The notes under the pieces are model-generated. The model searched no databases. It had not been told where the DNA came from and worked only from the letters and a program-made list of their open reading frames with translations. DNA of 32,812 bases from Bacteroidota bacterium (GTDB taxonomy: Bacteria; Bacteroidota; Bacteroidia; Chitinophagales; Saprospiraceae): assembly GCA_014190515.1 (NCBI GenBank), contig BJGN01000021.1, forward strand, positions 1-32,812, in the 5' to 3' direction. Shown here in pieces: positions 5,693 to 32,812 of this stretch (position 1 is its first letter; each line of letters starts with the position of its first letter). Position numbers and translations under genes: made by a program.

Positions 5693-8600
5693 TCATTTAA
5701 TCAGAGTAGTATTTCCTCTTTTCATAAAAGTTTTATTATCCAGACAAGTAACCTGAAGGAAATAATTATAAACATCGGGAGCCACTTCATTTCCTTTGTA
5801 AACACCATTCCATCCATTATTTAAATCTGTAGTTGTAAACATCTCTTGTCCCCATCTATTATAGACAACAAATTGAAGTTTTGAAATCCATCTACCCCTT
5901 ACTTTAAGAATATCATTATTGCCATCATTATTGGGAGTAAAGGCATTGGGGACAAAAATATTTGGTTCGCCGCAATTCACATTATCTACATTGATACGAA
6001 TTGTTTTCTCCTCCTTACAACCCTTTTTTGAAACGACCACCTTATAAATAGTAGTATCCTGTGGTGTAGCCCTTACAGAAGCTGTATTTGTTGCATTTAA
6101 ACCCGTAGTAGGGGTCCATGCATAAGCACAATCGGTACAACCTGTCACCGAAATATTTGCTATCTCATTATTTCCTTTTATTAGTGTTTCCCTATCAGTA
6201 GTGACATTCACCTTAATATCTATCAATTCCAACTGAGTTTCCAAGGTTTTCTTACAGCCATATTTGTTTTCAAAATTAACATTCACCAGCGAGGTTGCGT
6301 TTATTTTGTAGATAGCAGTAGGCCCTTCATTTGGTTTAGTAGTCAGAGAATTTACAGGGAACCAGCTATAATTTTTCAATCCCTGATTTGGATCATTATC
6401 TTTAATGGTCACTGTAGTCAAATCGACTGGTTTACAAACCACATAATTATCTTGCATAGTTGCCTCAACTGGAAACGCGCTAATTACCACGGTATCTCTC
6501 CAGAAGCAGCCTTTAGCGTCAGAAGCTTTAAGATAAAAAGTATTTTCAGCTCTACTCAAGGTATCTCTTTTTAAGGTAGCCTGATTACCCAGATTGTTGG
6601 AAAAATCTGGTAACCTTGACCATTGGAAAGTAAGGGGAATGGAAGAAGTTGCTGTCAAGGTATAAGGTCCATAATTACAAAGTGTAGTATCTCTGCCCGC
6701 AGAAATAGTTGCTTCAGGACTTACCTGTGCAGTTACTTTCCATACCAGATTACAATTCGTTTTGGGATCTGTAATCTTTACAGTATATATTTGATTAGTA
6801 TTTAAAGTAAACGTAGGATTAGCCACATTAGCATTATCCAGGCCCGTTGAAGGAGACCATAAATAGGTCACTAATGTGCTTTCAGGAAGATTAACCTTTT
6901 TGGGGATACCAGGACAAAAATTCAGTGTGGTATCCAATTCCACTACGGGAAGCATAGGACTCACCTCTACGCGCACAGAAACTGTAGTATCACAACCAGA
7001 GGCAGGATTCTGAATTTTCACAGAGTAAGTCATTGATTCTTTTAACTTTACCGTAGGATTACCTTTGGTAGTTTCACTCAGGCCAGTGGCTGGACTCCAG
7101 GAATAAATCAATTTATCATTAAACTTTGGATTAATCTGCTTTCCTACATTATAACAAACCGTTGACAGGCTGTCAATACCAGTTTCCGCACCAAAAGGTT
7201 TGACTATGGCATTAAATGAAATTGTGGTATCACATTTAGTTTCCGCATTAGTAATTTTTACGGAATAGATTTGACTGCTTTTCAGCGTTATGACAGGATT
7301 ACCAATATTTGGATTACTTAGTCCATTTTGTGGCAACCAACTATATGAAAGATTTTTATTAAAATTTTCATTGGTTACCGTTGGCACATCTCTACATAAT
7401 TGAACACCCGAATTTATATTTGATTGAATGGAAGCGTGTATTGCCACTGGAAAAATCAAAGTAGATTTACAGCCGAGGGCATTGGAGAGATTGAGGGTAA
7501 TAAGGGTTGGTGCATCCATTTTAAAGGTAGCTAAAGAAGTACCTTGCCCTGAAACGAAATTTCCATTGGTTTGCCAATTGTAGGTTAGCGCCCGATTCAT
7601 GTCTTTATTTTGAATATTTATTTCAAAATTAGAACCTCTACAAACTACTGAGTTTTGACCTGCTACAGGTAAAGAAATAACATCTATTGCAACCGCATCA
7701 ATAACGGTTGAAAAAGTACTTTGGCAAGCAGTTCCTTTTTCATAATATAAGGTAATTCTATTTTTACCCGATGAGGTGAAAGTCAAATTAACTGAATCAC
7801 CCTTCGCTATCAGCTTTTCAGCACCCGGTTCTCCCAGGTACCATTCTACAGATTTTGCCCCTGTATTCCCTCGCTTTAAGTTAAGTTTTGAACCTACGCA
7901 TACCTCTGCGGGAGCTTCAAAAGTAGCTTGAGGCACCGTACAATTCACCACATTGTATTGAAAATCACGTCGAACGACAGATAATAAATTTTTAGATGAT
8001 CTATCATATTCCTCAATACAAACAGCCACCACAAATTGACCCAAAACAGGAGGTACCCCCTTCATAATACCTGTGTTAACATCAATGGTTAAAGGATTAT
8101 TCCCTCCAAGAACATTGGCTAAAGAATAGGTTGGACCTAACCAGGTAACGGGTTGAAAAGGGGGTGCGGTGGGAGGTATAGGTTGAGGTCTTTGAAGAGT
8201 TCCACCTACCAATGGTGCACAAATTTTATAAGCAATGGAATCGTTATTCACATCGGTAGCGGTAGAATTTACATTGAGTTCCTGATTGGCACAAACATAA
8301 ACGGGAGGCCAACGATTCACCACTGGACTTGAATTACATTTTTGCATAGCGGCCTCGGTAAGCAATATATCATAAGTTGCCCCAGCCTCTGTAGGATTGA
8401 CAATATTAGAAATAGTGGTATTACGGCAGCAACGTTGATATACAAAATGATATCCCCCTACCCTAGGATTTAATGTAATTACAGATTTGTAAACGGTAGT
8501 ATGAACACAAACACTATTTATAAAAGAGGTATAACAAGAGTCCAGTCCCTCCCTTAATGTATCATTCCCAATAGGTCTAAGTGAAATATTATTTAGCCTT

Positions 8601-8863
8601 AAACCATTTGAAGCATAAACCCCAATAATGCCCGGATCATCAAAAAAAGCCGTTGGATTGGCATTAAAACAATCTCTAAAAACCCTCAATGTTATTTCAT
8701 ACTGATTGCCACCAAGACATCTGTAGCCAATTTCACCACCTACAATATGGGTGGCATTGACAGTGAAAGGAACCATAAATAATATGGCAGGTATAAGAAA
8801 CGTTAATTTTAAACGCAAGCACGTTATAAAATCATGTTTTTTATTTATATTATGTTGATTCAT
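5693..8863 (-). CDS. T9SS-secreted adhesin-like protein with type B C-terminal sorting domain (paralogue 1)
   Basis: A 1056-residue surface protein. Residues 1-37 are a signal peptide cleaved before THIVGGEI. Residues 38-310 form the conserved N-terminal region shared with the 1312-aa paralogue. Residues 320-480 are Ig-like. Residues 482-720 are three tandem 80-residue Ig/PKD-like repeats (YSW..P..GL..NP..YsVKI). A module around 718-880 matches the one duplicated in the paralogue, and 965-1056 is the type B sorting domain (IFVPNAFTPNNDGNND, YNRWGQEMF, DVYNYFLQV). The gene follows the OmpA-family gene by only 8 bp and ends at an intrinsic terminator. Family knowledge: proteins of this architecture are SprB-like adhesins or matrix proteins carried by T9SS. 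Whether this organism glides cannot be told from the window. Confidence 0.88.
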   Translation of the reverse strand: MNQHNINKKHDFITCLRLKLTFLIPAILFMVPFTVNATHIVGGEIGYRCLGGNQYEITLRVFRDCFNANPTAFFDDPGIIGVYASNGLRLNNISLRPIGNDTLREGLDSCYTSFINSVCVHTTVYKSVITLNPRVGGYHFVYQRCCRNTTISNIVNPTEAGATYDILLTEAAMQKCNSSPVVNRWPPVYVCANQELNVNSTATDVNNDSIAYKICAPLVGGTLQRPQPIPPTAPPFQPVTWLGPTYSLANVLGGNNPLTIDVNTGIMKGVPPVLGQFVVAVCIEEYDRSSKNLLSVVRRDFQYNVVNCTVPQATFEAPAEVCVGSKLNLKRGNTGAKSVEWYLGEPGAEKLIAKGDSVNLTFTSSGKNRITLYYEKGTACQSTFSTVIDAVAIDVISLPVAGQNSVVCRGSNFEINIQNKDMNRALTYNWQTNGNFVSGQGTSLATFKMDAPTLITLNLSNALGCKSTLIFPVAIHASIQSNINSGVQLCRDVPTVTNENFNKNLSYSWLPQNGLSNPNIGNPVITLKSSQIYSVKITNAETKCDTTISFNAIVKPFGAETGIDSLSTVCYNVGKQINPKFNDKLIYSWSPATGLSETTKGNPTVKLKESMTYSVKIQNPASGCDTTVSVRVEVSPMLPVVELDTTLNFCPGIPKKVNLPESTLVTYLWSPSTGLDNANVANPTFTLNTNQIYTVKITDPKTNCNLVWKVTAQVSPEATISAGRDTTLCNYGPYTLTATSSIPLTFQWSRLPDFSNNLGNQATLKRDTLSRAENTFYLKASDAKGCFWRDTVVISAFPVEATMQDNYVVCKPVDLTTVTIKDNDPNQGLKNYSWFPVNSLTTKPNEGPTAIYKINATSLVNVNFENKYGCKKTLETQLELIDIKVNVTTDRETLIKGNNEIANISVTGCTDCAYAWTPTTGLNATNTASVRATPQDTTIYKVVVSKKGCKEEKTIRINVDNVNCGEPNIFVPNAFTPNNDGNNDILKVRGRWISKLQFVVYNRWGQEMFTTTDLNNGWNGVYKGNEVAPDVYNYFLQVTCLDNKTFMKRGNTTLIK
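6700..7420 (-). repeat. Three tandem 240-bp (80-residue) Ig/PKD-like repeats in the 1056-aa adhesin
   Basis: The conserved Trp recurs at residues 509, 589 and 669, and the YsVKI/YtVKI strand recurs with the same 80-residue step. Each unit reads YxWxP..GL......NP...L.....Y.VKI......C. The third unit is the most diverged. Confidence 0.75.
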
Positions 8864-8871
8864 AGCTCTAT

Positions 8872-11316
8872 TTAATTAAGAATTTTTACTAAAATTTCAA
8901 CTCTTCGCTCAACAGAAGCTACCAGGCTGAAAACAGAATTCCTCTTATCCATCGGATTATCCGACACCTGCTTTTTTGATTTATTCTCACCGTAAGCAGA
9001 AGTAATAAACTTCAATTGTCCATTTTTAACAGACTCAGCTAATTTGCCCTGATTACTTTGCAGCAGATAATTTTGTATGGTTTTAATACGTCGATCGCTC
9101 AATAATTTATTAGAAGAGGCACTTCCCAATGGACTGGCAAATCCACTTAAGGTGATTTCCAGCTTCTTACCATCACCTAACTTTGCCACAATGGCTTTTG
9201 ACAAATATTCAAGACTTACCGTACCCATTTTCACTTCCCTGTTAAAGAACAAATCATACTGTTCATTTAAAATAAATTTCTCATCTTCGGGAAGTACCTT
9301 TGTAAAATTAGAAATAAAAGATTCCTTTTGATTAAAGTAGGTATTTGAAAGTTCTACATAATTCTCTGTCCCCTTTATCTTCATTTCCTTCGCCTTTGGT
9401 ATGTCATTATCAAAATATAAGGCAACAGGCGTAGATAAAGGTGGCTTAAGATAGACTTCAATGGTTATTTTTTTACCTAAACCCTTTACATCACTAAAAG
9501 TAAAACTTATGTCCTTTTCAACTGATTCATAATTATCTTTACTTGCTACCAATTTATATTTATGATTCTGAATAACTGAGAAAGTAAAGGAATTACCCTT
9601 CTCATTCGTTTGAATATTGTCCACAGAATTCTTTGTGTCTATCCATTTTAAAAGATTAACTGTTGTACCATTTAGTGCTTCCTTTGTTCTGTCATCAAAG
9701 GTTAAAACCTGGAGTTCTATCACAGTAGGATTTAAATAAACCTCAATAACCACCGTATCTCCTGTAAATGGATATCCCGCAATATTTAGTTCTCCCTGAT
9801 AAGAGTCAAAACCATCACTTTGGACTCCTACGGCATAATTTTCAGAAGAATTCCAAGAAAAATATGGCCAGTTGCCGTAAGAAACATCCACTTTTTCTGT
9901 TGTTCCAGAAGTAAGGCTTTGAACGGAAAGATTAGCCTCTCTGATTGTAGAAGAATCACTTGCATTACGAGCTAAAATTTTAACTTTTCTCAATGGCATT
10001 TCCCAGCTAACCAGGTTATAACAGCAAGCGTCAGGAACTTCCGTGGTACACGAACTTCCTTTTTCACCACGAACGGTTAACCAACCATTAGTTCCCTTTT
10101 CACTGAGGGAGAAAAATAAATCATCAGAAGAGGCATTCATCTGTACACCCATATTCATTGGGTTGGTCCAGCCATTTAAAGTTGGCGAAGAAGCGTAAAC
10201 ATCATAACCTCCAAAAGTAAATCTGCCCTGTGTGCTAAAATAAAGCCGTTGGGTTGTTGAATGAAAGAATGGCGTAATATCTTCTTCAGACGTATTCAGC
10301 GTTACCAAATTTTCTGGTACATCCACCTCACCATTTTCTAACACTGCGGCGCGATATAAATCATCTTTACCCTTACCACCGGGTCTGTTGGAAGAAAAAT
10401 ATAACCATAATTTTCCGTTATTATCTTTTCCAACCGCAGGATGCTGTGTTGAAAATCCACTGACATTAGCGGAAATTTTTAAAGGTTCCCCTATGCCACC
10501 ATTCTCATTATATTTTCTAAAAAAAATATCACACCGAACCTCCATTAAATTTACTTTATCACACAAACAATAGTATAAACCAGTATTTTCAGGAAGGAAA
10601 GTAACGCCAGAAATTAATTTATTGGGTACTGCCAATTGAGGCAACCAATTGGTATCGCCCTGACTATTCATTAACCTTAAATTTGAAACAAAAGCAATGC
10701 TGTCTTTATTTGAGGTTACTCTGTCATTTTCAGAAAATTTGGCATAAACAAAATCATTTTTATAAGCAACGGCACCAAATTCCGCTTCCAAACAATCATT
10801 AGAGGTAGATATTTTTTTGGTTTGTCCAGGAACATTTGTATAATTAGCGTATTCCTTTATGATCCGGCTGCAACTACCTTCCATCATTAACGCTTTATTT
10901 TTTAAAGGATCTCCCTCTTTAGCTTTTCTAAAATAGGATTGAAGGTTCTTTTGTGCACTATTATAATCTGCTAACCTCACATAAATCCATGCTGAATAAA
11001 AATAATTTTCAGCGGTAATCACAGAATCTGGAAAACGAAGAACCTTGTCGTAAATGGATCTGGCTGTTTGCAACCCTTGCATATTCCGTGCAGATTCGGC
11101 CATTTTCACCCATATATCCACCCTGGTAGAATCATAATTTGTTGCTGCCTGATAAAAATTAAAAGCTGTTCGATAGTCCTTTTCTACATAGAAGGACTGG
11201 TCAGCTGCTTTCAACCAGTTTTCTAATTTTTGACCAAAGGAATTAATTTGAAAAGTGCCTATCAATAAAAAGCTAAATAGCAGCTTATAAAAGGTATGAG
11301 TATTAAAATTTCGCAT
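8872..11316 (-). CDS. OmpA-family protein with TPR, PD40 and carboxypeptidase-regulatory-like domains (T9SS adhesin partner)
   Basis: An 814-residue envelope protein. The signal peptide ends about residue 28 (SFGQ). TPR-like helices cover about 30-130 (FNFYQAATNYDSTRVDIWVKMA). PD40/beta-propeller blades cover about 185-430, with LYFSSNRPGGKGKDDLY and YFSTQGRFTFGGYDVYA. Two carboxypeptidase-regulatory-like folds follow (about 450-640), then a C-terminal OmpA domain (668-814) with GFASPLGSASSNKLLSDRRI. The usual GHTD of OmpA is replaced by GFAS, a variant I associate with T9SS-linked OmpA proteins. This architecture matches PorE-like periplasmic proteins that tether T9SS cargo or anchors to peptidoglycan. 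It sits between the PorP/SprF-like gene (55 bp upstream) and the adhesin (8 bp downstream), so it very likely serves the same surface complex. Confidence 0.85.
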   Translation of the reverse strand: MRNFNTHTFYKLLFSFLLIGTFQINSFGQKLENWLKAADQSFYVEKDYRTAFNFYQAATNYDSTRVDIWVKMAESARNMQGLQTARSIYDKVLRFPDSVITAENYFYSAWIYVRLADYNSAQKNLQSYFRKAKEGDPLKNKALMMEGSCSRIIKEYANYTNVPGQTKKISTSNDCLEAEFGAVAYKNDFVYAKFSENDRVTSNKDSIAFVSNLRLMNSQGDTNWLPQLAVPNKLISGVTFLPENTGLYYCLCDKVNLMEVRCDIFFRKYNENGGIGEPLKISANVSGFSTQHPAVGKDNNGKLWLYFSSNRPGGKGKDDLYRAAVLENGEVDVPENLVTLNTSEEDITPFFHSTTQRLYFSTQGRFTFGGYDVYASSPTLNGWTNPMNMGVQMNASSDDLFFSLSEKGTNGWLTVRGEKGSSCTTEVPDACCYNLVSWEMPLRKVKILARNASDSSTIREANLSVQSLTSGTTEKVDVSYGNWPYFSWNSSENYAVGVQSDGFDSYQGELNIAGYPFTGDTVVIEVYLNPTVIELQVLTFDDRTKEALNGTTVNLLKWIDTKNSVDNIQTNEKGNSFTFSVIQNHKYKLVASKDNYESVEKDISFTFSDVKGLGKKITIEVYLKPPLSTPVALYFDNDIPKAKEMKIKGTENYVELSNTYFNQKESFISNFTKVLPEDEKFILNEQYDLFFNREVKMGTVSLEYLSKAIVAKLGDGKKLEITLSGFASPLGSASSNKLLSDRRIKTIQNYLLQSNQGKLAESVKNGQLKFITSAYGENKSKKQVSDNPMDKRNSVFSLVASVERRVEILVKILN

Positions 11317-11371
11317 TATTGGTAATTTTTTACATCTGTATTAAACAGATTAGGAAAATAAATTCTTTACA

Positions 11372-12445
11372 TCAAATCAATGGACAAACCCTTACCGTTT
11401 TGAAACGAGGTATTTTCTTGATTATATAATGCACAAAAATTTCAGGATCTGCCTGACCCGTTGGCAAAACGCCTGTCTTTGTTAAATTAATATCATAGCT
11501 AAATCCGGCTCTGACATTACGATATAGCATTTCAATAGACGGGGCAATCCTATTACCTATTTCCCGTTGTTGATAGTTAACATTTAAGTCAATGGCAAAG
11601 GTATTTCCTGGGTTCTTATCTAAATAAACGCGAAATCCAGCGCTAGCCATCCACTCATTATAAGCTGCCTGTGCTACATAAATAAGATTTGAAGTAAGAT
11701 CAATATTATTTGAAACCTGTAAAACACCCATTACATAAGGATTTAATCGCATGGGAATTTTTGACACAGCGTCAGGAAAGAAACTGGTATTTGGTGAAAA
11801 TAAATGATGAACACCTACGCCAATATCTAACTTACTTCTTTTATTCAAAAGATCAACTAATTGTCCCTTTTGATCTGCCTGGATTCTAATATTTGCTCCC
11901 ATTCCAGCATCTAAAAATATTTTCGATAAATCCCAAAGTCCTTCTCCATTCGGAGCAGAAGCATTCACACCATTAATGGATGGGTCATATTGACGGTCAA
12001 ATAACAATGCACCGGGGTCAAAACCTCTTTGATTTCCACTAAGGTTAAATCCAATAGTACCAAAAACTTTTGGGCTGAATTTTTTTGTGTACCCCCCACC
12101 TACAAATATCCCTGTTTGTTGTAAACGTGAATCTCCCGCCAAATCATAGGTTAACCCACCATTTAATGACCAGAATTTATCATCTTCCAAGTAGGAAGGT
12201 AATTTAGTATCAAAGGAAAGCGTTACCGTTTTGTAATCAACAGGAATTTCCCTCCATTGATTTCTGGCCTGAAACATCAATCTCGTATCACCATTGAACA
12301 CACCTGATAAACCAGGTGAAACTTGCAAAGGGTTTCTAAAAAATTGAGTGAAATGGATATCTTGAGCAATTACCTTTACAGATAAAAACATCAAAAACCA
12401 AAACAAGGAAAATAATTTTGAATTCTTTTTGTAAATTTTCATCAT
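11372..12445 (-). CDS. PorP/SprF-family outer-membrane protein
   Basis: A 357-residue outer-membrane barrel. The signal peptide ends at VIAQ (residue 28). The mature N-terminus DIHFTQFFRNPLQVSPGLSG, followed by FNGDTRLMFQARNQW, is the PorP/SprF signature (DiHFSQFy..PL..NPA..G.f.Gd.R....YrnQW). The alternating amphipathic strands and SAGFRVYL/IAPSIEMLYRNVRAGFSYDINL near the C-terminus fit a beta-barrel. Known family role: PorP/SprF proteins hold type B-sorted T9SS adhesins at the cell surface. As first gene of this locus it is well placed to anchor one or both adhesins downstream. ATG at 12445 was chosen because it places the signal peptide correctly; the second ATG directly after it would serve equally. 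Confidence 0.9.
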   Translation of the reverse strand: MMKIYKKNSKLFSLFWFLMFLSVKVIAQDIHFTQFFRNPLQVSPGLSGVFNGDTRLMFQARNQWREIPVDYKTVTLSFDTKLPSYLEDDKFWSLNGGLTYDLAGDSRLQQTGIFVGGGYTKKFSPKVFGTIGFNLSGNQRGFDPGALLFDRQYDPSINGVNASAPNGEGLWDLSKIFLDAGMGANIRIQADQKGQLVDLLNKRSKLDIGVGVHHLFSPNTSFFPDAVSKIPMRLNPYVMGVLQVSNNIDLTSNLIYVAQAAYNEWMASAGFRVYLDKNPGNTFAIDLNVNYQQREIGNRIAPSIEMLYRNVRAGFSYDINLTKTGVLPTGQADPEIFVHYIIKKIPRFKTVRVCPLI

Positions 12446-12530
12446 GGAGTAAATATTAGTATGTTACAGCAAATAAAGCAAGTGTAAAATACAAATTTTA
12501 AATCTAATTTAAAAATAAAAAAAACGATCT

Positions 12531-12538
12531 CAAACATA
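12531..12538 (-). promoter_or_regulatory. Candidate promoter -7 box for the PorP-OmpA-adhesin operon
   Basis: TATGTTTG on the minus strand fits TAnnTTTG exactly and lies 86 bp upstream of the ATG at 12445. No good -33 TTTG was found at the expected distance, so support is moderate. Confidence 0.4.
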
Positions 12539-12549
12539 TATAAATAAAT

Positions 12550-12563
12550 CGCTATATTTAGCG
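12550..12563. promoter_or_regulatory. Inverted repeat in a divergent promoter region
   Basis: CGCTA-TATT-TAGCG is a near-palindrome in the 159-bp divergent region between the PorP-led operon and the beta-helix gene. It contains TATATTTA (12553-12560), one mismatch from a plus-strand -7 box, and lies just upstream of the minus-strand -7 box. It could be an operator shared by both directions; this is inferred from position only. Confidence 0.3.
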
Positions 12564-12604
12564 TTGATAGAATATTGTCATTTAATCAACATAGCTTAGG
12601 ATCA

Positions 12605-13642
12605 ATGAAGATAATAACTAATAAACTATTCTTTCTCTGTGCATTATTCTTCATTTTGGAAGGAAATGCGAAGACTATATTTGTAAAAACGGATGGGAAA
12701 GGGAACGGGGAAAGTTGGGAAAATGCCCTATCTAACCTTCAACTTGCTATTGACATTGCAACGGAATCAGACCAAATTTGGGTAAAAACAGGTATTTATT
12801 ATCCAACAAAAACTAATAATAGGCAAATTCCATTTTTAATTGATAAATCAGTAAAAATTTTTGGAGGTTTTTCAGGCAGTGAAAAGGCATTGAAAGAAAG
12901 AGATTTCGAACAATTTCAAACCATAATTTCTGGAGAAATAGGCGATAAAACCACGCTCCTGGACAACTCGCACAATATTTTTTTAATTGATATTGAAAAG
13001 GGAGATATTATTTTAGACGGTATTACAATACAACGTGGAATGGCAAATATTTCATCCAATGCCTCTAATAGAAAAGCGTCGGGAGCGGGAATATTTTATA
13101 TCAGCAGTGGCAATAAAAGTAGTCTCTGGGTATCTAATTGTTTGTTTATTGATAATCAAGCTCTTTACGGAGGTGCCATTTCTGCCTTCACTATAGAGGG
13201 AGGCGATGGGACTATTCACATAGAAAATTGTGCTTTTCATAATAATATAGCCGAAATTGAAGGTGGGGCTATTTACCATCTTGCATCAAAAGGCAGTAAA
13301 GATTTATTAGAAATTCAACACACCACTTTTACTCAAAATATCGCCACCTTTGGTGGAGCCATTTACCACAAAGCGGATAAAGGATCAATCTCATCCACAC
13401 GGGTTAGTTTTTCAGATTTTACTGCCAATATTGCCTACGTAAGAGGTTCTTGTATTTATAATCAGATAGACGATGATGAATCAGGAAGTCCCTTATTTAT
13501 AGATTGTAGTTTTTTTGAGAACAAGGAAACGGTTGGTAATGCTATCGGTGATTCCAATAACATTCAAAAAAGCCAAAATAATGCTGACCGTATGATCATT
13601 AGACCGACGCTACGCCCCATTTTAAAAAGGAAGATTCCCTAA
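12605..13642 (+). CDS. Secreted right-handed beta-helix protein with PMP-like GGAI repeats
   Basis: The better start is ATG 12605, giving 345 residues and a clean signal peptide (KIITNKLFFLCALFFILEGNAK); the ORF also opens 30 bp earlier at an ATG with a poor N-terminus. The mature protein begins TIFVKTDGKGNGESWENALSNLQLAID, the standard entry to a parallel beta-helix of the 'choice-of-anchor'/PMP type. It then shows repeats of about 45-50 residues: FIDNQALYGGAISAF, FHNNIAEIEGGAIYH, FTQNIATFGGAIYHK, FTANIAYVRGSCIYN. Such proteins usually end in a T9SS sorting domain, but none is visible; the C-terminus is a basic tail that overlaps the convergent racemase-like gene by 21 bp. It may be C-terminally truncated. 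Role unknown, probably carbohydrate or surface binding. Confidence 0.75.
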   Translation: MKIITNKLFFLCALFFILEGNAKTIFVKTDGKGNGESWENALSNLQLAIDIATESDQIWVKTGIYYPTKTNNRQIPFLIDKSVKIFGGFSGSEKALKERDFEQFQTIISGEIGDKTTLLDNSHNIFLIDIEKGDIILDGITIQRGMANISSNASNRKASGAGIFYISSGNKSSLWVSNCLFIDNQALYGGAISAFTIEGGDGTIHIENCAFHNNIAEIEGGAIYHLASKGSKDLLEIQHTTFTQNIATFGGAIYHKADKGSISSTRVSFSDFTANIAYVRGSCIYNQIDDDESGSPLFIDCSFFENKETVGNAIGDSNNIQKSQNNADRMIIRPTLRPILKRKIP

Positions 13643-25527: not shown

Positions 25528-27255
25528 TTACAGATTGTTATTTTTCAATTGCTTAACAGCATAATCAACCGCTCTGGCTGTTAAAGCCATATAGGTTAAC
25601 GATGGATTAACGCAAGCGGCAGAGGTCATACAAGCGCCATCAGTCACGAAAACATTAGACACCTGATGCATTTGATTCCATTTATTCAGAATAGAAGTTT
25701 TGGGATCATTCCCCATTCTGGCCGTCCCCATTTCATGAATACCCAGACCGAGAGCATAACCATCGTCATAGGTGGTAATCTCTTTTAATCCGGCAGCTTC
25801 CAGCATTTCAGCTGCAGCATTCATCATATCAAGGCGCATATTTTTTTCATTCGTCTTTATGCCTGCATCAAATTTGAGCACTGGAAGACCCCATTTATCT
25901 AAGCGGCTGTAGTCGAGTTCGACTTTATTTTCATGGTAGGGCAGAGTCTCTCCAAAGCCAAGTAAATTCATAGACCATGGTCCAGGTTCTGCTAGTTGAT
26001 CTTTAGATTGAGCACCCATAAGGAAAGCCTCCTCGGCTACTAAAGCACCAAAGCTTTGCCTTCCACCACCACCTTGATACCCATAACCTCTAATGAAGTC
26101 CCTTCTTTTGGTTGCATTGTCAATATTTCTGAACCTGGGTACATATATTCCATTAGGTCTTCTGCCCTTAAAATATTTGTCACCAAATAATTCAGATTTA
26201 GCTCTGGCACCTGCTCTGAAATGGTGATCCATAATATTATGACCAAGTTCACCACTTAGATTCCCCAAACCATTCGGATGAGAATCGTACCTGGAATTCA
26301 ATAGAATATGGGTAGTTCCTAATGCAGAAGCACAACAGAAAATAACTTTAGCAAAAAACTCATGGACTTCCATGGTTTCCGCATCGATAATACGAACCCC
26401 TACTGCCTTTTGTGTTTTTTCATCCAAAATGATATTTTGAACAATAGAATGTGGCCTGAGCGTCATATTTCCAGTAGCTTCGGCAGCGGGTAAAGCAGCA
26501 GCATTGGAACTGTAATAAGCACCATAAGGACACCCTCTAATGCAGCGATTTCTGGACAGACACTGACCTCTTGTTCCATGGTACTCAGGATTTGGCTGAG
26601 TAAGATGAGCTGTTCTGCCTATCGTTATACGACGTTCAGGATATTTAGCTTCTGATTTTTCCTTTACAAATTCTTCTATGCAATTAAACTCCATGGGAGG
26701 CAAAAACTCACCATCGGGCAACTGATGTAGCCCTTCTTTCTGGCCACTCACCCCAATGTATCGCTCAACATAATCATACCAGGGAGCGATATCAGCATAT
26801 CTGATTGGCCAATCTACAGCAATACCGTCTTTTGCATTAGCTTCAAAATCCAGGTCACTCCATCGGTAACTTTGTCTTCCCCACATAATGGAACGTCCGC
26901 CCACATGGTATCCCCTCATCCAATCGAAGCGTTGAACTTCAGTATAAGGTTGTTCAGAATCTTTAACAAAAAAGTGTTTGGTTGATTCTTTTATGGTATA
27001 ACCTGTTCTTGATTGGTTGAAATAATGCTCTTTCACTTCAGCTTCTGGCACATTGTCCCCATTGGGCAATTCCCAGGGATCTAGAGAAGCTGTTGGATAA
27101 TCTACTACGTGTTTGACATCCCTACCTCTTTCGAGTACGAGCGTTTTAAGTCCCTTTTCACAGAGTTCTTTGGCGGCAAAACCTCCACTAATCCCTGATC
27201 CGATGACAATAGCATCATAAGTGACTTCTTTTTTACCTTCAGTGTTTACGTACAT
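25528..27255 (-). CDS. GMC-family FAD oxidoreductase, catalytic subunit of a sugar dehydrogenase
   Basis: A 575-residue flavoprotein. The Rossmann FAD motif IGSGISGG is at 18-25 with the ribose-binding Glu at LERG (42). GGRSIMWGR is the flavin-proximal loop. A Cys cluster follows in CLSRNRCIRGCPYG. The C-terminal catalytic block has HEMGTARMG (His507) and VNPSLTYMALT (Asn550), the His/Asn pair of pyranose-oxidase-like GMC enzymes. No signal peptide; export by hitchhiking on the Tat small subunit is expected. Substrate is probably a sugar or glycoside (2- or 3-position oxidation), from family knowledge and the isomerase neighbour; the exact sugar is unknown. First gene of its operon, divergent from the disrupted aconitase 5' region. 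Confidence 0.9.
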   Translation of the reverse strand: MYVNTEGKKEVTYDAIVIGSGISGGFAAKELCEKGLKTLVLERGRDVKHVVDYPTASLDPWELPNGDNVPEAEVKEHYFNQSRTGYTIKESTKHFFVKDSEQPYTEVQRFDWMRGYHVGGRSIMWGRQSYRWSDLDFEANAKDGIAVDWPIRYADIAPWYDYVERYIGVSGQKEGLHQLPDGEFLPPMEFNCIEEFVKEKSEAKYPERRITIGRTAHLTQPNPEYHGTRGQCLSRNRCIRGCPYGAYYSSNAAALPAAEATGNMTLRPHSIVQNIILDEKTQKAVGVRIIDAETMEVHEFFAKVIFCCASALGTTHILLNSRYDSHPNGLGNLSGELGHNIMDHHFRAGARAKSELFGDKYFKGRRPNGIYVPRFRNIDNATKRRDFIRGYGYQGGGGRQSFGALVAEEAFLMGAQSKDQLAEPGPWSMNLLGFGETLPYHENKVELDYSRLDKWGLPVLKFDAGIKTNEKNMRLDMMNAAAEMLEAAGLKEITTYDDGYALGLGIHEMGTARMGNDPKTSILNKWNQMHQVSNVFVTDGACMTSAACVNPSLTYMALTARAVDYAVKQLKNNNL

Positions 27256-27312: not shown

Positions 27313-27385
27313 AAAAAAAACCTATTCCTAAAATTTAATTAAATATCATAAAATTTTCGGTAAATATCCTTCAATAGTTCTAAAT
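27313..27385 (+). repeat. Left copy of 73-bp direct repeat flanking the SusC/SusD cassette
   Basis: Matches 32686-32758 in the same orientation with three substitutions (left 27337, 27343, 27358) and no gaps. It includes the shared cores CCTATTCCTAAAATTT and ATATCCTTCAATAGTTCTAA. Identity stops exactly inside what is the -7 box of the right copy. The offset between copies is 5373 bp. Confidence 0.9.
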
Positions 27386-27393
27386 ACATTAAA

Positions 27394-27519
27394 TTGATTA
27401 AAGCATGGTATGCTGCATTACCACAACGCATTGCTGACTCAAGAAAAGTACTTGGAAGACCATTAAATCTTACCGAAAAAATACTTTATGCCCATCTTCA
27501 TAATGCTTCACCTTTACGA
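27394..27519 (+). pseudogene. Aconitase N-terminal fragment (about codons 6-47), disrupted
   Basis: Frame from 27394 reads LIKAWYAALPQRIADSRKV, then LGRPLNLTEKILYAHLHNASPLR. Aconitases of Bacteroidota start with a short leader, then 'IKkvYa.lp.ri..aR..vgRPLTLtEKILYsHL', which this follows closely. The start codon and first residues are missing on the left, where the 73-bp repeat joins it, and similarity ends abruptly at 27519, where the frame runs on to a TGA at 27553. It has no usable start and no promoter. It is a duplicated 5' end of an aconitase gene; the intact gene is probably the one opening at 32807. Confidence 0.78.
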
Positions 27520-27530
27520 AGTAAGATACT

Positions 27531-27625
27531 TACACCAGTCAGCATATTCGGCTGATGACAAATAGGTTTTTTATCTGAGCGAGCCATTCGGGTCATTCAA
27601 AGAATATCAGCTCAGTTTGGACAAC
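27531..27625 (+). mobile_element. Possible remnant of an IS21-like element end
   Basis: TCAGC-ATATTCG-GCTGA (27539-27555) and CTGAGC/GCTCAG (27575-27580, 27610-27615) are the kind of CAG/CTGA inverted repeats that I recall downstream of istB in Bacteroidota IS21-family elements, together with the GAGCCATTCGGGTCATTC wording. No transposase ORF remains. The call is from memory of such elements and is weak, but its place at the breakpoint of the aconitase fragment fits. Confidence 0.35.
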
Positions 27626-27897
27626 CCCTCGCGGGTTACTTAGGAAACACGGTTTTCTCTTCAACCTGTAGGGTTCCTCACTAAATCGAAGGCTGGAATC
27701 CTATGATTTAGCCAGGATAGCCAAATTTTCACCATTTGGGATGGTAGCACTAAAGAGGCAACTATAAAGATTGCCTGCATGATTCGGGAATTGGGTTAGG
27801 GGAAGCTGGAATTACTATGAAAAAGTAAGGAGGGGACCAGATCAGCAAAGGGAGAAGGTCGTATGCCTCCTGATGGCAGAAATCCGTTGAGCTATTT
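27626..27897. other. Non-coding stretch of unknown origin rich in inverted repeats
   Basis: No ORF over about 25 codons in any coherent frame. Several inverted repeats are visible: CTAAATC/GATTTAG (27681, 27705), GGCT/AGCC (27691, 27710), and AGGAGG/CCTCCT (27828-27833, 27866-27871) enclosing GACC/GGTC. GC content is higher than in the flanking left-hand DNA. It may be a structured RNA, a 3' part of the susCD transcript, or decayed mobile DNA. I could not match it to any RNA family. Confidence 0.5.
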
Positions 27898-27927
27898 GGG
27901 CCCGGGGAGTCTAATCACCCCGGGCCC
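27898..27927. terminator. Strong GC-rich hairpin after the SusC/SusD operon
   Basis: GGGCCCGGGG and CCCCGGGCCC make a perfect 10-bp stem around a 10-nt loop, 23 bp past the susD-like stop. On the plus strand it is followed by TCTTTATTT, on the minus strand by AAATAG, so the U-run favours plus-strand termination. It could still block or stabilise the 3' end of the minus-strand transcript. Confidence 0.6.
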
Positions 27928-27950
27928 TCTTTATTTGAGAACAGGATTGG

Positions 27951-29465
27951 TTAATCCTTGGTGTCCCACCATAAAGGCGTCTTCAGGCGTAAGGCGGGGG
28001 AATTGTCCCCAACATTAGCACCGTTGCGAACCTCCTCGTTGCCCTCCATAATCATTCCGCGAATCCATTCCCCTTCCGCGAAGAGGGGATTAAGATTTAT
28101 AGGACGGTTAAGGGAGGGTCCGTAAATATCCTTACTGTAGTCCATCCGGCGCATATCCACCCAAGTTTCTGGATTGAAAACCAGCGCGATATATTTTTGC
28201 CGCATGATATGGCTCAATCCAGAAGTCAGATTGTCAAAGTGCTGTTGCACCCCATTGGTGACCAGGCCGCTCCAGAAAGCGTCTATTTGCGCTGCCGGCA
28301 CACCCAAACGGCGCATATTTGCCCGAACACCTTCCTGATAGGCAGCTAGTGCAGCGGTCTTGTTTCCAGAGCGCAGGCGGGCTTCCGCTTCGATAAATTT
28401 CACCTCAGCATAAGTAATAAAGGGGTAAGGCGAAGTGGGCCGTGCATAAAATCCGCCGGTCACCCTACCGTAGTTATTTCCGTTTGCGGCCACCCCGCCT
28501 GGTACGCCCTGGCCGGGAATAAGTCCTCGAAACTGTCCATCAGAGGGTGCGGGATTCATGATAATGCCGATGCGGGGATCTTTCAGGGTAGCATTGGTTA
28601 CTGGGGTGGTGGACAAGAGATTGACGAAGAATTGGGTATAGGAGAAATATCGGGGTGCTGTTGCACTTGTAAATCCACCATAACCTTTGATGCTCCAGGG
28701 ATTAGCATCTGTAGCGGAGCCATTGTCTAGGTAGGGATATTCGGCATCCATACCATCAGCATTAAAGGCATTGGCGCAGGCATCAAGGACCGCCTGGGCA
28801 TTGTAGGCCTTCTTTTTGGTCAAGTGATTGAGATAGCGGGCTTTCAAAGCGTAAGCAAACCTCCGCCATTTGTTAATGTCCCCTTGATACATAATATCTC
28901 CCTTGTCGAGATTCAGGTTTTTCTTGTTCCCGGAATCATTAAAAAGGGCAATGGCCTCATCAAGTTTTTCAATAATCTGTTTGTACACGGCCTCTTGACT
29001 GTCAAAAGCTGGAGTAAGGCGGGCGGTGGTAATTCCGTCATATGCTTCTTTCACCGGAATACTACCATATTGATCGGTGAGCATGCCAAAGTTGAGTGCT
29101 TCCAGGGTACGACCTGCGGCAGCAAAATGGGGTGATCCTTCCGCTTTACCGAGTACAACCATGTCAACACAATTTGGAATGGCCCAGGTGTAGGCATTTT
29201 GCCAGAAAAAATTACTGGCGCTGAAGCGCCAGGTTTCCGCAGCATTGGTTGCGGTAGGAGCTGACGCATATTGGCAAACGGCAGCAATTTCTCGGGCTGC
29301 ACGCCACATGGATGCCCCATTTGACATGGTGATTGCACCTACAAGTCTGCTTTCCAAGGGGATAGCCTGTGGATTATTGGGATCGGCATTAACATCCAGG
29401 AAATCCTTACAAGAATTGCTGAGAAAGGCCAGTGAGAATAGGATGAAATATGTTAAACGTTTCAT
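27951..29465 (-). CDS. SusD/RagB-family outer-membrane nutrient-binding lipoprotein
   Basis: A 504-residue surface lipoprotein that captures oligosaccharides or peptides for its SusC partner. The lipoprotein signal ends at SNSC with Cys19 lipidated, followed by KDFLDVNADPNNPQAIP, a typical SusD start. The all-helical TPR core and the C-terminal blocks YPFITYAEVKFIEAEARLRS, QKYIALVFNPETWVDMRRMD and a final WW-containing tail fit the SusD-like-2 type. It starts 23 bp after the SusC-like stop and ends just before the hairpin at 27898. No glycoside hydrolase, sulfatase, peptidase or sensor lies nearby, so the nutrient cannot be deduced. Codon third positions are visibly richer in G/C than in the genes to the left. 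Confidence 0.93.
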   Translation of the reverse strand: MKRLTYFILFSLAFLSNSCKDFLDVNADPNNPQAIPLESRLVGAITMSNGASMWRAAREIAAVCQYASAPTATNAAETWRFSASNFFWQNAYTWAIPNCVDMVVLGKAEGSPHFAAAGRTLEALNFGMLTDQYGSIPVKEAYDGITTARLTPAFDSQEAVYKQIIEKLDEAIALFNDSGNKKNLNLDKGDIMYQGDINKWRRFAYALKARYLNHLTKKKAYNAQAVLDACANAFNADGMDAEYPYLDNGSATDANPWSIKGYGGFTSATAPRYFSYTQFFVNLLSTTPVTNATLKDPRIGIIMNPAPSDGQFRGLIPGQGVPGGVAANGNNYGRVTGGFYARPTSPYPFITYAEVKFIEAEARLRSGNKTAALAAYQEGVRANMRRLGVPAAQIDAFWSGLVTNGVQQHFDNLTSGLSHIMRQKYIALVFNPETWVDMRRMDYSKDIYGPSLNRPINLNPLFAEGEWIRGMIMEGNEEVRNGANVGDNSPALRLKTPLWWDTKD

Positions 29466-29488
29466 GACTTATATTTTAGCTTTAATAA

Positions 29489-32400
29489 TTAAAGGCTCAG
29501 ACGCAAACCGAAATCCAGTCCCCGAACTGCCGGGGTACCCAAATTATCCATACCCATGGAGCCCGTACCTACTACGCCGGCGCCTCCAGAACTTACCTCC
29601 GGATCAACCCCGGAATAGTTGGTAATAAGAAGGAGATTACGCCCAGTGGCATAAAATTCAAGACCTTTTATCTTGGCACGTTCTAACGTCTTATTTGGGA
29701 TACGGTAGGAAAGAGACACGTACCGCAACCTATACCAGGTGCCATCTTCCACGAATAGTGGTCCATCTCCCCTGGCAATTAGCTGAAAGTAGTTCTGGTC
29801 AAGTACCACTTCGCGGGTATTCTTTTCTCCGGTGGATTCAATTATGCCGTTAAATACCTTTTTGGTTCCCCTTTCCAGTGTTTTTGTGCTCAGACCACTA
29901 CGAATCATTGCATTTTCAGTAGCGTTATAGATATCCCCGCCGATACGGAAATCAAGAAGGAAAGAAAGGCTTAGGTTACCAAATTGGAAGGAGTTGGTCA
30001 GGCCAATCATGAAGTCGGGATTGCGATCTCCTATAATCTCTTTTATGGAGCTGATCTGAGGATACCCCTGATTGTTTAGCAGTAATTCTCCCTTGGCATT
30101 GCGCTTCCATACATCGCCGTTTATGCCAAAAAGGGACTTTCCGAGGAAGCCGGCTCCTTGGGCTGTAAATCCGTCAGTCGAGGCGTCCGATTGCTCCACC
30201 CTGTCCAGGGTGCCAGGCAAGGAAACCACAGTTGACCGGTTTCGGGAGAAATTCAGGTCAAAAGACCATTTGAATTTGTTTGTTTTTACTGGCGTAGCAT
30301 TGACCATCAACTCGACCCCCTCGTTTTCTATGCTTCCACCGTTCAGGTAGGATATGAAGGAGCTAGAAGAAGGAGGAACCCGGGTAAAAAGTATCTGGTC
30401 ATCGGAATTCATCTTGTAGTAGGTGAAGTCCACCCCCAGCTTACCCTTAAAGAACTGCAGGTCTATGCCTGTCTCTAAGGCATTGGTGAATTCTGGTCTA
30501 AGCGCGGGTGCACCAAAAGCATAAACGTTGGTGATGAATCCCCTGGGTCCGGCAGTGAATGAATTCGTGGTATTGAAATAGGTGTTTCCCAGTACATGCG
30601 GAGGAGCATCTTTACCCACTCGCGTCCACGATCCACGGATTTTGGCATAAGGCAAAAGGTTACTCTTGCCACTTGTCAGACCCATTTCGTTTAGTAAATC
30701 AGTCAGCACCACACTACCACTGAAGGACGGATAGAAGAAGGAGCGATTACTTACGGGAAGGGTGGAAGACCAATCGTTTCGTGCCCGAACATTAAGGAAA
30801 ACAATCGACTTCCAATCTGCATTGAAATCGGCGAATGCACCAACAATCCGTCGCCGAAAGCCCCCAACAGAAATGACGCGTTCGTTCTGAACCACATTAT
30901 TTATACTCGCAAAAGTAGGTACGATGAAATTGCGACCATACCATGTAGCTGTGTTATTTCTGGCCGATTCGACATTGTGGCCTAGGGCGAGGCTTGTATT
31001 AAAGTTACTGCCGATACGCTGGGAAAAAGTGGCCACCAGCGTGGATGTAGTTATTTGGTTGAAACGGTCCGTTTGGGTGATAGCCCCCTTTTCTTCGCCT
31101 CCAATCACCGTCCCGGCGCCCCGAATAGAAGTGAATTCCTCATTGAAAAAATCGGTTCCAGCCCGGTAAGTTACATTGAGGAAAGAAAACGGATTATAAT
31201 CCAAGTTTAGGGTGGTGATAATACGGTTGACATTACTCTTACTCGGATTGTTATAAACGCTCCAATAGGGATTGTCAATAAAAGCGGCATCGTTAGAAAC
31301 ACCCAAAATCGTGCGTTGCCGTCCATCTGCCGTAAGATAGTTACGGGGATCGTCATTCAATGGCCAATTATAAAGTCCCCGAATAGTACCGCCTCCGCCT
31401 CCGCCTGCAGCACTGACAACATTGGCATCAGCAATACCTGATCCGCCAAGGGTTGAGCGATTACGGGAATTGGTGTAGTTGACGGAACCGCCGGCCTTGA
31501 TTTTCTTGCCTATCTGGCTTTCATTAGAAAGCCTGAAGGAGGTGCGGTCGAATCCCGTGTTCGGAACAATACCGCTCTGGTCGAACCGGCTACCTGAGAG
31601 AAAGAACGTGCTGCGCTCTGTGCCTCCAGAGGCAGACAAGTCGTGCCGCTGGGTAAAGGCAGGCTCAAAGAAATTCCGCAAATTGTCGTAAATGGTTTCA
31701 TTTGACCCCAGTTCCGGTCCCCATGAACTTCGAGCATCAGGATTCTTTTTACCGTCTATCCCCTGTCCGAAGCGCGTCTGAAACACTGGGAGCTTATTTA
31801 CGACATCACGAGAAAAGGAATTGGTATAATTTATACGAAAGGTCCCTGCCTGGCCTCGCTTGGTAGTGATGATGATAGCGCCCCCTGAGGCACGAAGTCC
31901 ATACAAAACAGCAGCCGCAGGCCCCTTCAATACGGTCAGAGAGGCGATATCTTCGGGATTGATGTCTATCCCACGGTTACTATTGTTCGTATTCTGAGCA
32001 TTCAATCCTATTCCGCCACCCACTGGGGCACTGTTGTCAACCGGGATGCCATCCACTACGAAAAGGGGCTGATTACTTCCACTGAGAGAGGTTCCGCCAC
32101 GAATCATGATAACAGCAGCTGCACCTGGTGCACCGCTGGAGTTGTTTATCATCACGCCAGCTACCTTTCCCTGTAGGCTGTTTACCAAATTGGGCTGTTG
32201 GGCCTCAACTAAGGATTCGGCTTGGAGCGTCTGGACAGCGTAGGTAAGGGCTTTCTTGTCTTTTTTCATTCCCAAGGCTGTCACGACTACCTCACCTAAT
32301 TGCTCTTCATCTGCCGATAACTCCACATCGAGCGTGGTGGAAGCACCAGAAACTAGATCCTGAGTGAGATAGCCAATGTAGGAAAATCGAAGGGTAGCAC

Positions 32401-32611
32401 CTTCCGGCACATTAATACGGTAATTTCCATCAAGGTCTGTTATAGTTCCATTGGACGAGGAAACTTGTTGTACAGTGGCCCCAATGAGGGGTGTTCCCGT
32501 TCCTGCTTCTGTAACTTTTCCACTAATCTGTCGCTGACCAAAGGCAGCGGTGACTAAACTAATCCCAAACAAGCAAAGACAAAGGAACTTCCTTAAAAAT
32601 ACTTCTTTCAT
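29489..32611 (-). CDS. SusC/RagA-family TonB-dependent outer-membrane transporter
   Basis: A 1040-residue TonB-linked receptor. The signal peptide ends at AAFGQ (26). A carboxypeptidase-regulatory-like domain follows (about 28-105: ISGKVTEAGTGTPLIGATVQ, then DGNYRINVP, FSYIGYLTQ). The SusC signature EVVVTALGMKKDKK leads into the plug domain (about 108-230) with SLQGKVAGVMINNSSGAPG, IMIRGGTSLSG, PLFVVDGIPVDN and VLKGPAAAVLYGLRASGGAI. The 22-strand barrel fills the rest and ends with an aromatic/leucine strand (GLDFGLRLSL). Complete, with no frameshift. It is the promoter-proximal gene of the pair. Its GC content is near 50% by eye, well above the adhesin and metH regions, which suggests recent acquisition of the cassette. 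Confidence 0.95.
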   Translation of the reverse strand: MKEVFLRKFLCLCLFGISLVTAAFGQRQISGKVTEAGTGTPLIGATVQQVSSSNGTITDLDGNYRINVPEGATLRFSYIGYLTQDLVSGASTTLDVELSADEEQLGEVVVTALGMKKDKKALTYAVQTLQAESLVEAQQPNLVNSLQGKVAGVMINNSSGAPGAAAVIMIRGGTSLSGSNQPLFVVDGIPVDNSAPVGGGIGLNAQNTNNSNRGIDINPEDIASLTVLKGPAAAVLYGLRASGGAIIITTKRGQAGTFRINYTNSFSRDVVNKLPVFQTRFGQGIDGKKNPDARSSWGPELGSNETIYDNLRNFFEPAFTQRHDLSASGGTERSTFFLSGSRFDQSGIVPNTGFDRTSFRLSNESQIGKKIKAGGSVNYTNSRNRSTLGGSGIADANVVSAAGGGGGGTIRGLYNWPLNDDPRNYLTADGRQRTILGVSNDAAFIDNPYWSVYNNPSKSNVNRIITTLNLDYNPFSFLNVTYRAGTDFFNEEFTSIRGAGTVIGGEEKGAITQTDRFNQITTSTLVATFSQRIGSNFNTSLALGHNVESARNNTATWYGRNFIVPTFASINNVVQNERVISVGGFRRRIVGAFADFNADWKSIVFLNVRARNDWSSTLPVSNRSFFYPSFSGSVVLTDLLNEMGLTSGKSNLLPYAKIRGSWTRVGKDAPPHVLGNTYFNTTNSFTAGPRGFITNVYAFGAPALRPEFTNALETGIDLQFFKGKLGVDFTYYKMNSDDQILFTRVPPSSSSFISYLNGGSIENEGVELMVNATPVKTNKFKWSFDLNFSRNRSTVVSLPGTLDRVEQSDASTDGFTAQGAGFLGKSLFGINGDVWKRNAKGELLLNNQGYPQISSIKEIIGDRNPDFMIGLTNSFQFGNLSLSFLLDFRIGGDIYNATENAMIRSGLSTKTLERGTKKVFNGIIESTGEKNTREVVLDQNYFQLIARGDGPLFVEDGTWYRLRYVSLSYRIPNKTLERAKIKGLEFYATGRNLLLITNYSGVDPEVSSGGAGVVGTGSMGMDNLGTPAVRGLDFGLRLSL

Positions 32612-32685
32612 AGATAAATCATTTGGTTAAAAAAAAATGATAAAATTTAAAATACTGTCCAAGATAAAATATTTTAGTTTTTTTA

Positions 32686-32758
32686 AAAAAAAACCTATTC
32701 CTAAAATTTTATTAATTATCATAAAATTTTGGGTAAATATCCTTCAATAGTTCTAAAT
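32686..32758 (+). repeat. Right copy of 73-bp direct repeat flanking the SusC/SusD cassette
   Basis: Second copy of the sequence at 27313-27385, with three substitutions. It lies between the divergent susC-like start and a plus-strand promoter leading to the ATG at 32807. Its context looks native: an intact promoter and leader for a downstream gene. Confidence 0.9.
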
Positions 32759-32761
32759 TTG
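32728..32761 (+). promoter_or_regulatory. Intact promoter for the gene starting at 32807
   Basis: TTTG at 32728-32731 (-33) and TAAATTTG at 32754-32761 (-7, perfect TAnnTTTG) are separated by 22 bp, slightly long but within what is seen in Bacteroidota. The expected transcription start is near 32768. The homologous left copy reads TTTC and TAAATACA at these two places, so only this copy should be active. Confidence 0.6.
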
Positions 32762-32806
32762 GGCGAAATTTAAAAAACCAAAGCATAGACTAAATAACCA
32801 ACGATT

Positions 32807-32812
32807 ATGCCA
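32807..32812 (+). CDS. First two codons of a gene, predicted intact aconitase
   Basis: ATG CCA (Met-Pro) at the window edge, 46 bp after a perfect -7 box. The region upstream duplicates the sequence that precedes the aconitase fragment at 27394, so this is predicted to be the complete aconitase gene. Only two codons are visible; the identification rests on the repeat. Confidence 0.4.

Follow-up and report, generated by a model that had tools for sequence, protein, structure and literature searches.

Horizontally acquired SusC/SusD nutrient-importer loci are known from the Bacteroidota, some of them on conjugative elements. Here we describe one such pair in a 32,812-nucleotide stretch of a Saprospiraceae genome (the window, which is the entire contig C21 of genome G000), where a foreign segment carrying the pair sits between a GMC oxidoreductase gene and an aconitase gene and is flanked by a direct duplication of native DNA. 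As in the transferred loci already known, the pair was gained by transfer, but here it stands without a conjugative element or a carbohydrate-active enzyme gene. Some integrative islands insert at the 5′ end of a gene and restore that end, ordinary transposition leaves short target duplications, and the usual att cores and target duplications are far shorter than the 268 bp duplicated at this locus. The 268-bp duplication therefore does not fit ordinary transposition.

The nearest counterparts come from laboratory recombination. In an Escherichia coli conjugation experiment designed for homology-facilitated illegitimate recombination (HFIR), 56 of 60 Lac− clones gave a duplication-diagnostic PCR product, and the 14 sequenced clones carried lacZ duplications of 109–950 bp, which the authors ascribed to a single crossover with a shortened circle (PMC3240628, in its sections on these clones). 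Our locus shares with this Campbell-type single-crossover insertion-duplication a direct, transposase-free target duplication of a few hundred base pairs; unlike the lacZ duplications, it is natural and old, its left copy has decayed, and the circular intermediate is unseen. HFIR proper generally deletes recipient DNA (PMC3240628). The likeness to HFIR lies in foreign DNA that has homologous sequence next to it on one side and an arbitrary join on the other; HFIR deletes a similar-sized piece of the recipient, whereas here DNA was duplicated and none lost, and the locus does not belong to that class. DNA uptake in transformation of Streptococcus pneumoniae also yields duplicated chromosomal segments, but the merodiploids treated in the relevant part of PMC3784515 are mainly large tandem duplications between pre-existing repeats, unlike the situation here.

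We compared the locus with six further genomes of the genus (G001–G006). In five of these (G002–G006), the GMC and aconitase genes are divergent, their start codons lie 177–178 bp apart, and one copy of the repeat stands between them; these are empty sites. G001 is occupied like G000, with a truncated aconitase fragment, then the SusC/SusD insert, and then an intact aconitase gene, all on a single contig. The repeat is thus present as one uninterrupted copy in 5/5 empty genomes and as two copies in 2/2 occupied ones. The GMC protein is 98–100% identical in amino acid sequence across the six other genomes (the G003 copy is split over two contig pieces), and alignment with the empty sites shows that nothing of the empty site is missing at the occupied locus. 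Since GMC and aconitase are adjacent at the empty sites of relatives, the SusC/SusD segment is inserted, and its insertion between the two genes is confirmed. An earlier note made from the window sequence had asked whether GMC and aconitase are directly divergent in relatives lacking the pair, which they are, and had proposed that a cassette of about 5 kb entered between them with duplication of the target rather than with a short target-site duplication; the empty-site alignment bears out this proposal. The features of the locus are as follows (window coordinates).

25528–27255, minus strand: GMC oxidoreductase gene, the native left neighbor (PF05199 and PF00732).
27313–27385, plus strand: left repeat copy, native aconitase upstream DNA, ending inside the −7 box (TAAAT, then ACA).
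27385–27386, plus strand: site at which the left copy has lost 58 bp, comprising the remainder of the −7 box, the 5′ leader, and the start codon.
27388–27525, plus strand: truncated, decayed aconitase 5′ end (residues 5–50).
27547–27711, plus strand: decayed fragment of a foreign tricorn-protease-like gene.
27951–29465, minus strand: gene for a SusD-like lipoprotein of 504 aa (PF12771, 194.2 bits against a cut-off of 27).
29489–32611, minus strand: gene for a SusC/RagA TonB-linked outer membrane protein of 1040 aa (TIGR04056, 614.6 bits against a cut-off of 368.25).
32612–32685, no strand: stretch upstream of SusC and the A/T tract where the insert meets the right copy (from the empty-site alignment).
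32686–32758, plus strand: right repeat copy, the beginning of the full 268-bp copy that extends into contig C173.
32729–32761, plus strand: putative promoter of aconitase (TTG, 22 bases, TAAATTTG); of the two copies, only the right one keeps it intact.
32807–32812, plus strand: 5′ end of the intact aconitase gene, which runs on into contig C173 (L005:122–2392).

The earlier note had described a 73-bp repeat with three mismatches bracketing the pair. On remeasurement, the copies (27313–27385 and 32686–32758) are identical at 70/73 positions (96%), in the same orientation, and spaced 5373 bp apart. They align to each other with an E value of 1.9e-27 in a search of the entire G000 genome and so are not a product of chance; in that genome the stretch occurs only at these two places and at an overlapping contig end. 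We considered a coincidental repeat, which the E values and the empty-site alignment ruled out. Although the repeat is real, 73 bp understates it: aligned with the five empty sites, the right copy of the duplication is 268 bp long and the left copy 210 bp, and the duplicated stretch reaches from an A8 tract ∼120 bp ahead of the aconitase start codon to about codon 49. The difference in length is a single 58-bp internal deletion in the left copy, whose boundaries are identical in G000 and G001. Within G000 the left copy matches the right one at 195/210 positions (92.9%), and within G001 at 197/210 (93.8%); between the two genomes the left copies agree at 199/210 positions (94.8%) and the right copies at 253/268 (94.4%). 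The truncated left copy shared by G000 and G001 points to a single insertion event in the genus, and one common insertion predating their split is the simplest reading.

What the two copies lead into had also been read correctly from the window. Beyond the left copy, 27388–27525 encodes aconitase residues 5–50 in broken form (85% identity, E 1.5e-19). Beyond the right copy, extension past position 32812 was possible through contig C173 (L005), which opens with the last 127 bases of the window in exact overlap and encodes an intact aconitase of 756 aa (TIGR01340, 1115.5 bits against a cut-off of 825.35); the gene starting at 32807 is therefore aconitase. The overlap at this contig break (window 32686–32812, L005:1–127) begins at the first base of the repeat, and the break may reflect coexisting empty and occupied alleles or a variant in the A/T homopolymer.

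The insert occupies approximately 27526–32685, about 5.1 kb, and is foreign by composition. Its GC content is 47–52% in 500-base steps from 27501 to 32500, compared with 30–44% elsewhere in the window, and GC at third codon positions is 0.49 in SusC and 0.50 in SusD vs. 0.27–0.34 in seven native genes nearby. At its left end the insert breaks off inside a protease gene; it is thus a chunk of foreign chromosome and not a trimmed cassette. The protease remnant has 66% DNA identity to a tricorn-type gene elsewhere in G001 (Pfam PD40 and Tricorn_C1) and 70% over 84 bases to one in G000. The alignment score of the G000 remnant is 106 vs. at most 37 in 200 shuffles, whereas the shorter G001 remnant alone scores 31, within the shuffle range (up to 37). 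About 148 bp (27537–27684) is absent from G001, and because the protease similarity in G000 runs through that part, this is a loss in G001. A family-wide DNA search covered 248 genomes, a sample in which G001 evidently is not included; among the matches listed, with two candidates scored per genome, there was no convincing match to the protease fragment in the other 247 of the 248 genomes (one match of 25 bases). We also considered a short-homology join at the left insert end and dropped it, as the native protease gene does not show the homology. The noncoding left part gave a single subthreshold Rfam match to an RNA element (19.2 bits against a gathering score of 90).

The foreign composition, the duplication, and the empty sites are all directly observed; our preferred account of them is a single old integration of a piece of foreign chromosome into the GMC/aconitase interval, probably by insertion-duplication through a single crossover, with later exchange and perhaps loss within the genus. 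The donor would have been a GC-richer bacterium contributing ∼5.1 kb with the tricorn-like protease fragment and, convergent to it, the complete SusC–SusD pair, and integration would have happened once, in an ancestor within the genus. The crossover, a step that we infer, would have taken place within this 268-bp stretch and involved the chromosome and a molecule in which the foreign DNA was joined to the same piece of aconitase DNA, and it would have duplicated ∼268 bp of the target. In this way GMC keeps its upstream sequence on the left, and aconitase keeps its upstream region, start codon, and coding sequence on the right. Subsequently, the left copy would have decayed through the 58-bp deletion and the protease fragment would have decayed as well, while SusC and SusD would have been kept by purifying selection. 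Direct repeats of recipient DNA at both ends and a one-copy empty site, the marks of insertion-duplication, are both present. At sites 25 and 31 of the duplication, in the promoter, the left copy resembles G003, G004, and G005 and the right copy resembles G002 and G006. At sites 249, 250, 252, and 258, the right copy of G000 resembles G004 and the left copies resemble G002, G003, G005, and G006. In G001, the right copy shares the allele of the G000 right copy at site 258 only.

Several points weigh against this explanation. The allele pattern expected of a single crossover rests on very few sites, and later recombination, or retention in the left copy of an old allele such as that of G003 or G005, can also fit it. 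The circle or chimeric molecule with genus-type aconitase DNA that the crossover requires was not seen. The chemistry of joining is unreadable, given the decay at the left join and the position of the right one within an A/T homopolymer. Moreover, the G000 flank is closest to that of the empty genome G004 (94.1%) rather than to that of G001 (92.7%), so a loss or a transfer is needed in addition to the insertion. DprA is encoded in 7/7 genus genomes, which says little about competence.

The arbitrary left end and the homopolymer at the right would also suit a repair event that needs no homology in the incoming DNA, in which two nicks or breaks ∼268 bp apart, or a template switch to the sister chromosome, captured a foreign fragment and fill-in duplicated the stretch between. 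The left insert end does cut a gene at an arbitrary point, and the right join is compatible with joining by very short homology, but Ku was found in none of the seven genus genomes (two of them just 88–91% complete) by a search that was positive in Bacillus subtilis. Classical end joining is therefore unlikely, and we regard offset-break repair as a whole as a possible but unlikely route. A 268-bp tandem duplication that arose beforehand and later received the foreign segment between its copies would presumably leave the identical anatomy; it requires two events, however, and a tandem copy is present in none of the five empty genomes, which makes this order of events improbable.

Still less probable is that the insert is what remains of an integrative element or transposon for which the 5′ end of aconitase served as attachment site. 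Insertion at a restored gene 5′ end does resemble some integrative islands, and one pair of 34-nt arms with 76% complementarity exists (27327–27360 and 32700–32733), although it lies inside the AT-rich, partly palindromic repeat copies. Besides SusC and SusD, just two open reading frames (ORFs) of at least 100 aa lie in the insert; they measure 103 and 126 aa and run antisense to the pair. Apart from these four there is no ORF of recombinase or integrase size in the insert. No inverted repeat linking the two insert ends and no short target-site duplication were found, so that the transposase gene, terminal inverted repeats, and short target duplication of a transposon or insertion sequence are all lacking. 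The restored 5′ end is of genus type and not foreign, which also speaks against an integrative island, and 268 bp is far above the usual att core or target duplication. Finally, the contig ends exactly at the repeat with the 127-base overlap, much as at a branch in an assembly graph, which might suggest an artefact fusing unrelated pieces. Misassembly is rejected, with hardly any probability left to it, because in G001, a different genome whose flank is 92.7% identical, a single contig has the elements in this order and carries the identical 58-bp deletion.

Returning to an old single integration, we examined its later history within the genus. Synonymous divergence (dS) between G000 and G001 is 0.245 for SusC and 0.157 for SusD, compared with 0.244–0.368 for seven nearby native genes and 0.211 for rpoB. 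The rpoB comparisons were made without G002, G005, and G006 (wrong reading frame), and by this gene G000, G001, and G004 are about equidistant (dS 0.21–0.23). The left part of the insert is 97–98% conserved between G000 and G001, and fourfold-degenerate sites of SusD differ at 4/103 positions in codons 301–504 vs. 36/141 in codons 1–300 (Fisher p 2.6e-6). Window positions 27685–28565 thus show very low divergence between the two genomes, silent sites included, beside normally diverged sequence. A functional noncoding element in the left part was considered and rejected, as the fourfold sites of the SusD C terminus are equally conserved; for the same reason, recent recombination is the better explanation, and the pattern is a sign that the C-terminal part of SusD was exchanged later between lineages.

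In trees of two blocks of the left flank, G000 pairs with the empty genome G004 (support 100/100 and 88/94), and G001 joins these two next (78/80 and 96/96). The aconitase tree has the same order with weak support, and the GMC tree does not resolve it. Two histories would fit: loss of the insert from G004, through recombination between the copies or replacement by an imported empty allele, or passage of the insert between the lineages of G000 and G001. The discordant distribution and the recently exchanged stretch lead us to infer that homologous recombination carried occupied and empty alleles around within the genus. A further idea, to which we give rather little credence, is that the 268-bp flanks make the SusC/SusD segment a reversible module, carried between lineages of the genus as a GMC–aconitase allele and lost through its own flanks, with both chromosome types in one population. 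Alignments of G002 were partial (metH 893/1225 codons, aconitase 613/756). The G002 aconitase gene (L068, G002:C115:28383–30585) is broken near its C terminus, with ∼65 bases missing, and its metH (L117) lacks ∼90 bases; either real decay or assembly error could be responsible.

The duplicated DNA includes the putative aconitase promoter. TTG-N22-TAAATTTG stands at −78 to −46 relative to the ATG in each of the six genus loci scanned and in the right copy, and the left copy lacks it. Scanning upstream regions at 29 of 30 aconitase loci (the locus of G000 itself, L037, was left out; expectations are from single-letter shuffles), we found TAnnTTTG within 250 bp in 25/29 loci vs. 3.7 expected and the two-part motif in 9/29, six of them from the genus, vs. 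0.45 expected. The six genus loci are not independent, and TAnnTTTG is present at varying distance in 19 of the 23 loci from other genera. In Flavobacterium psychrophilum, the main sigma factor has TAnnTTTG as its −7 consensus (PMC9723704). Because the 58-bp deletion starts inside the −7 box and ends past the start codon, the left copy has neither. Selection may have favored the deletion because it would keep antisense transcription from running into the SusD and SusC genes.

Judged by its sequence, the pair is an ordinary SusC/SusD (RagA/RagB) importer. In addition to the matches listed above, SusC exceeds the cut-offs for PF13715 and PF07715 and is slightly below that of the SusC_RagA signature model TIGR04057 (43.4 vs. 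46.2). The ratio dN/dS between G000 and G001 is 0.04–0.05 for both genes, and low dN (0.012 for SusC and 0.007 for SusD) indicates purifying selection, so the pair is presumably a functional uptake system. The best solved relative of SusC is BT_2264; SusD had 25 matches, and BT_2263, the partner of BT_2264, is one of the weaker ones. We take the BT_2264/BT_2263 pair to carry peptides, and given the adjoining protease remnant, peptide uptake by our pair would be a guess. No carbohydrate-active enzyme gene was found in the insert, to which this check was limited and which holds SusC, SusD, and the protease remnant only; the enzyme genes beside the pair that characterize a polysaccharide utilization locus are thus missing.

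A genome scan with SusC, which picks up close relatives only, returned 11 loci: G001's own (98%), eight at 68–78% identity, and two below 30%. The eight lie outside the genus, in Phaeodactylibacter, Saprospiraceae metagenome-assembled genomes (MAGs), Cyclobacterium, Lunatimonas, and related MAGs, with locus GC of 38–55%. Among the 248 family genomes, four besides G000 match most of the pair at 69–72% DNA identity, one of them with a shorter match. On plasmids, SusD had a single match at 29.5% identity, which gives no lead. No promoter could be assigned to SusC: TAnnTTTG was not found within 250 bp upstream of SusC in the window, and it precedes SusC at one of nine homologous loci, a set that includes G001's own (several start codons were inferred from alignment and are inexact).

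The earlier note had suggested a cassette-mobility route for orphan SusC/SusD pairs, and here the evidence went the other way: the insert is a chunk of foreign chromosome, the shared truncated left copy points to one insertion event, and none of the eight homologous loci has flanking repeats. Direct repeats of at least 40 bp within ∼3 kb on either side of the pair were found at 0/8 of these loci (L099 ends inside SusD and has no right flank), a search that could miss older, decayed duplications. A recurrently mobile SusC/SusD cassette, or a general mobility route, is not supported. The locus is clearly a natural scar of an old gene acquisition and not a new kind of mobile element. A literature search on SusC/SusD, horizontal gene transfer, and direct repeats returned nothing on such insertions by title, and we make no claim that they are undescribed. 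The locus offers a clean example from nature, backed by the empty sites of close relatives, of how an uptake pair can enter a chromosome apparently without a mobile element; the housekeeping gene is unharmed because the target duplication leaves both neighbors their own upstream DNA, and the spare promoter copy has been disabled.

Elsewhere in the window, two large paralogous proteins encoded side by side (1572–5510 and 5693–8863) have diverged repeats in common (142 nt at 76% and 94 nt at 78%). Aconitase was absent from the available flanking sequence of three homologous loci (L094, L099, and L100). In a Saprospiraceae MAG (L095), the homologous SusC/SusD pair (7986–12651) lies 5.8 kb downstream of aconitase (1–2226) on the same strand, a proximity that is probably a coincidence.

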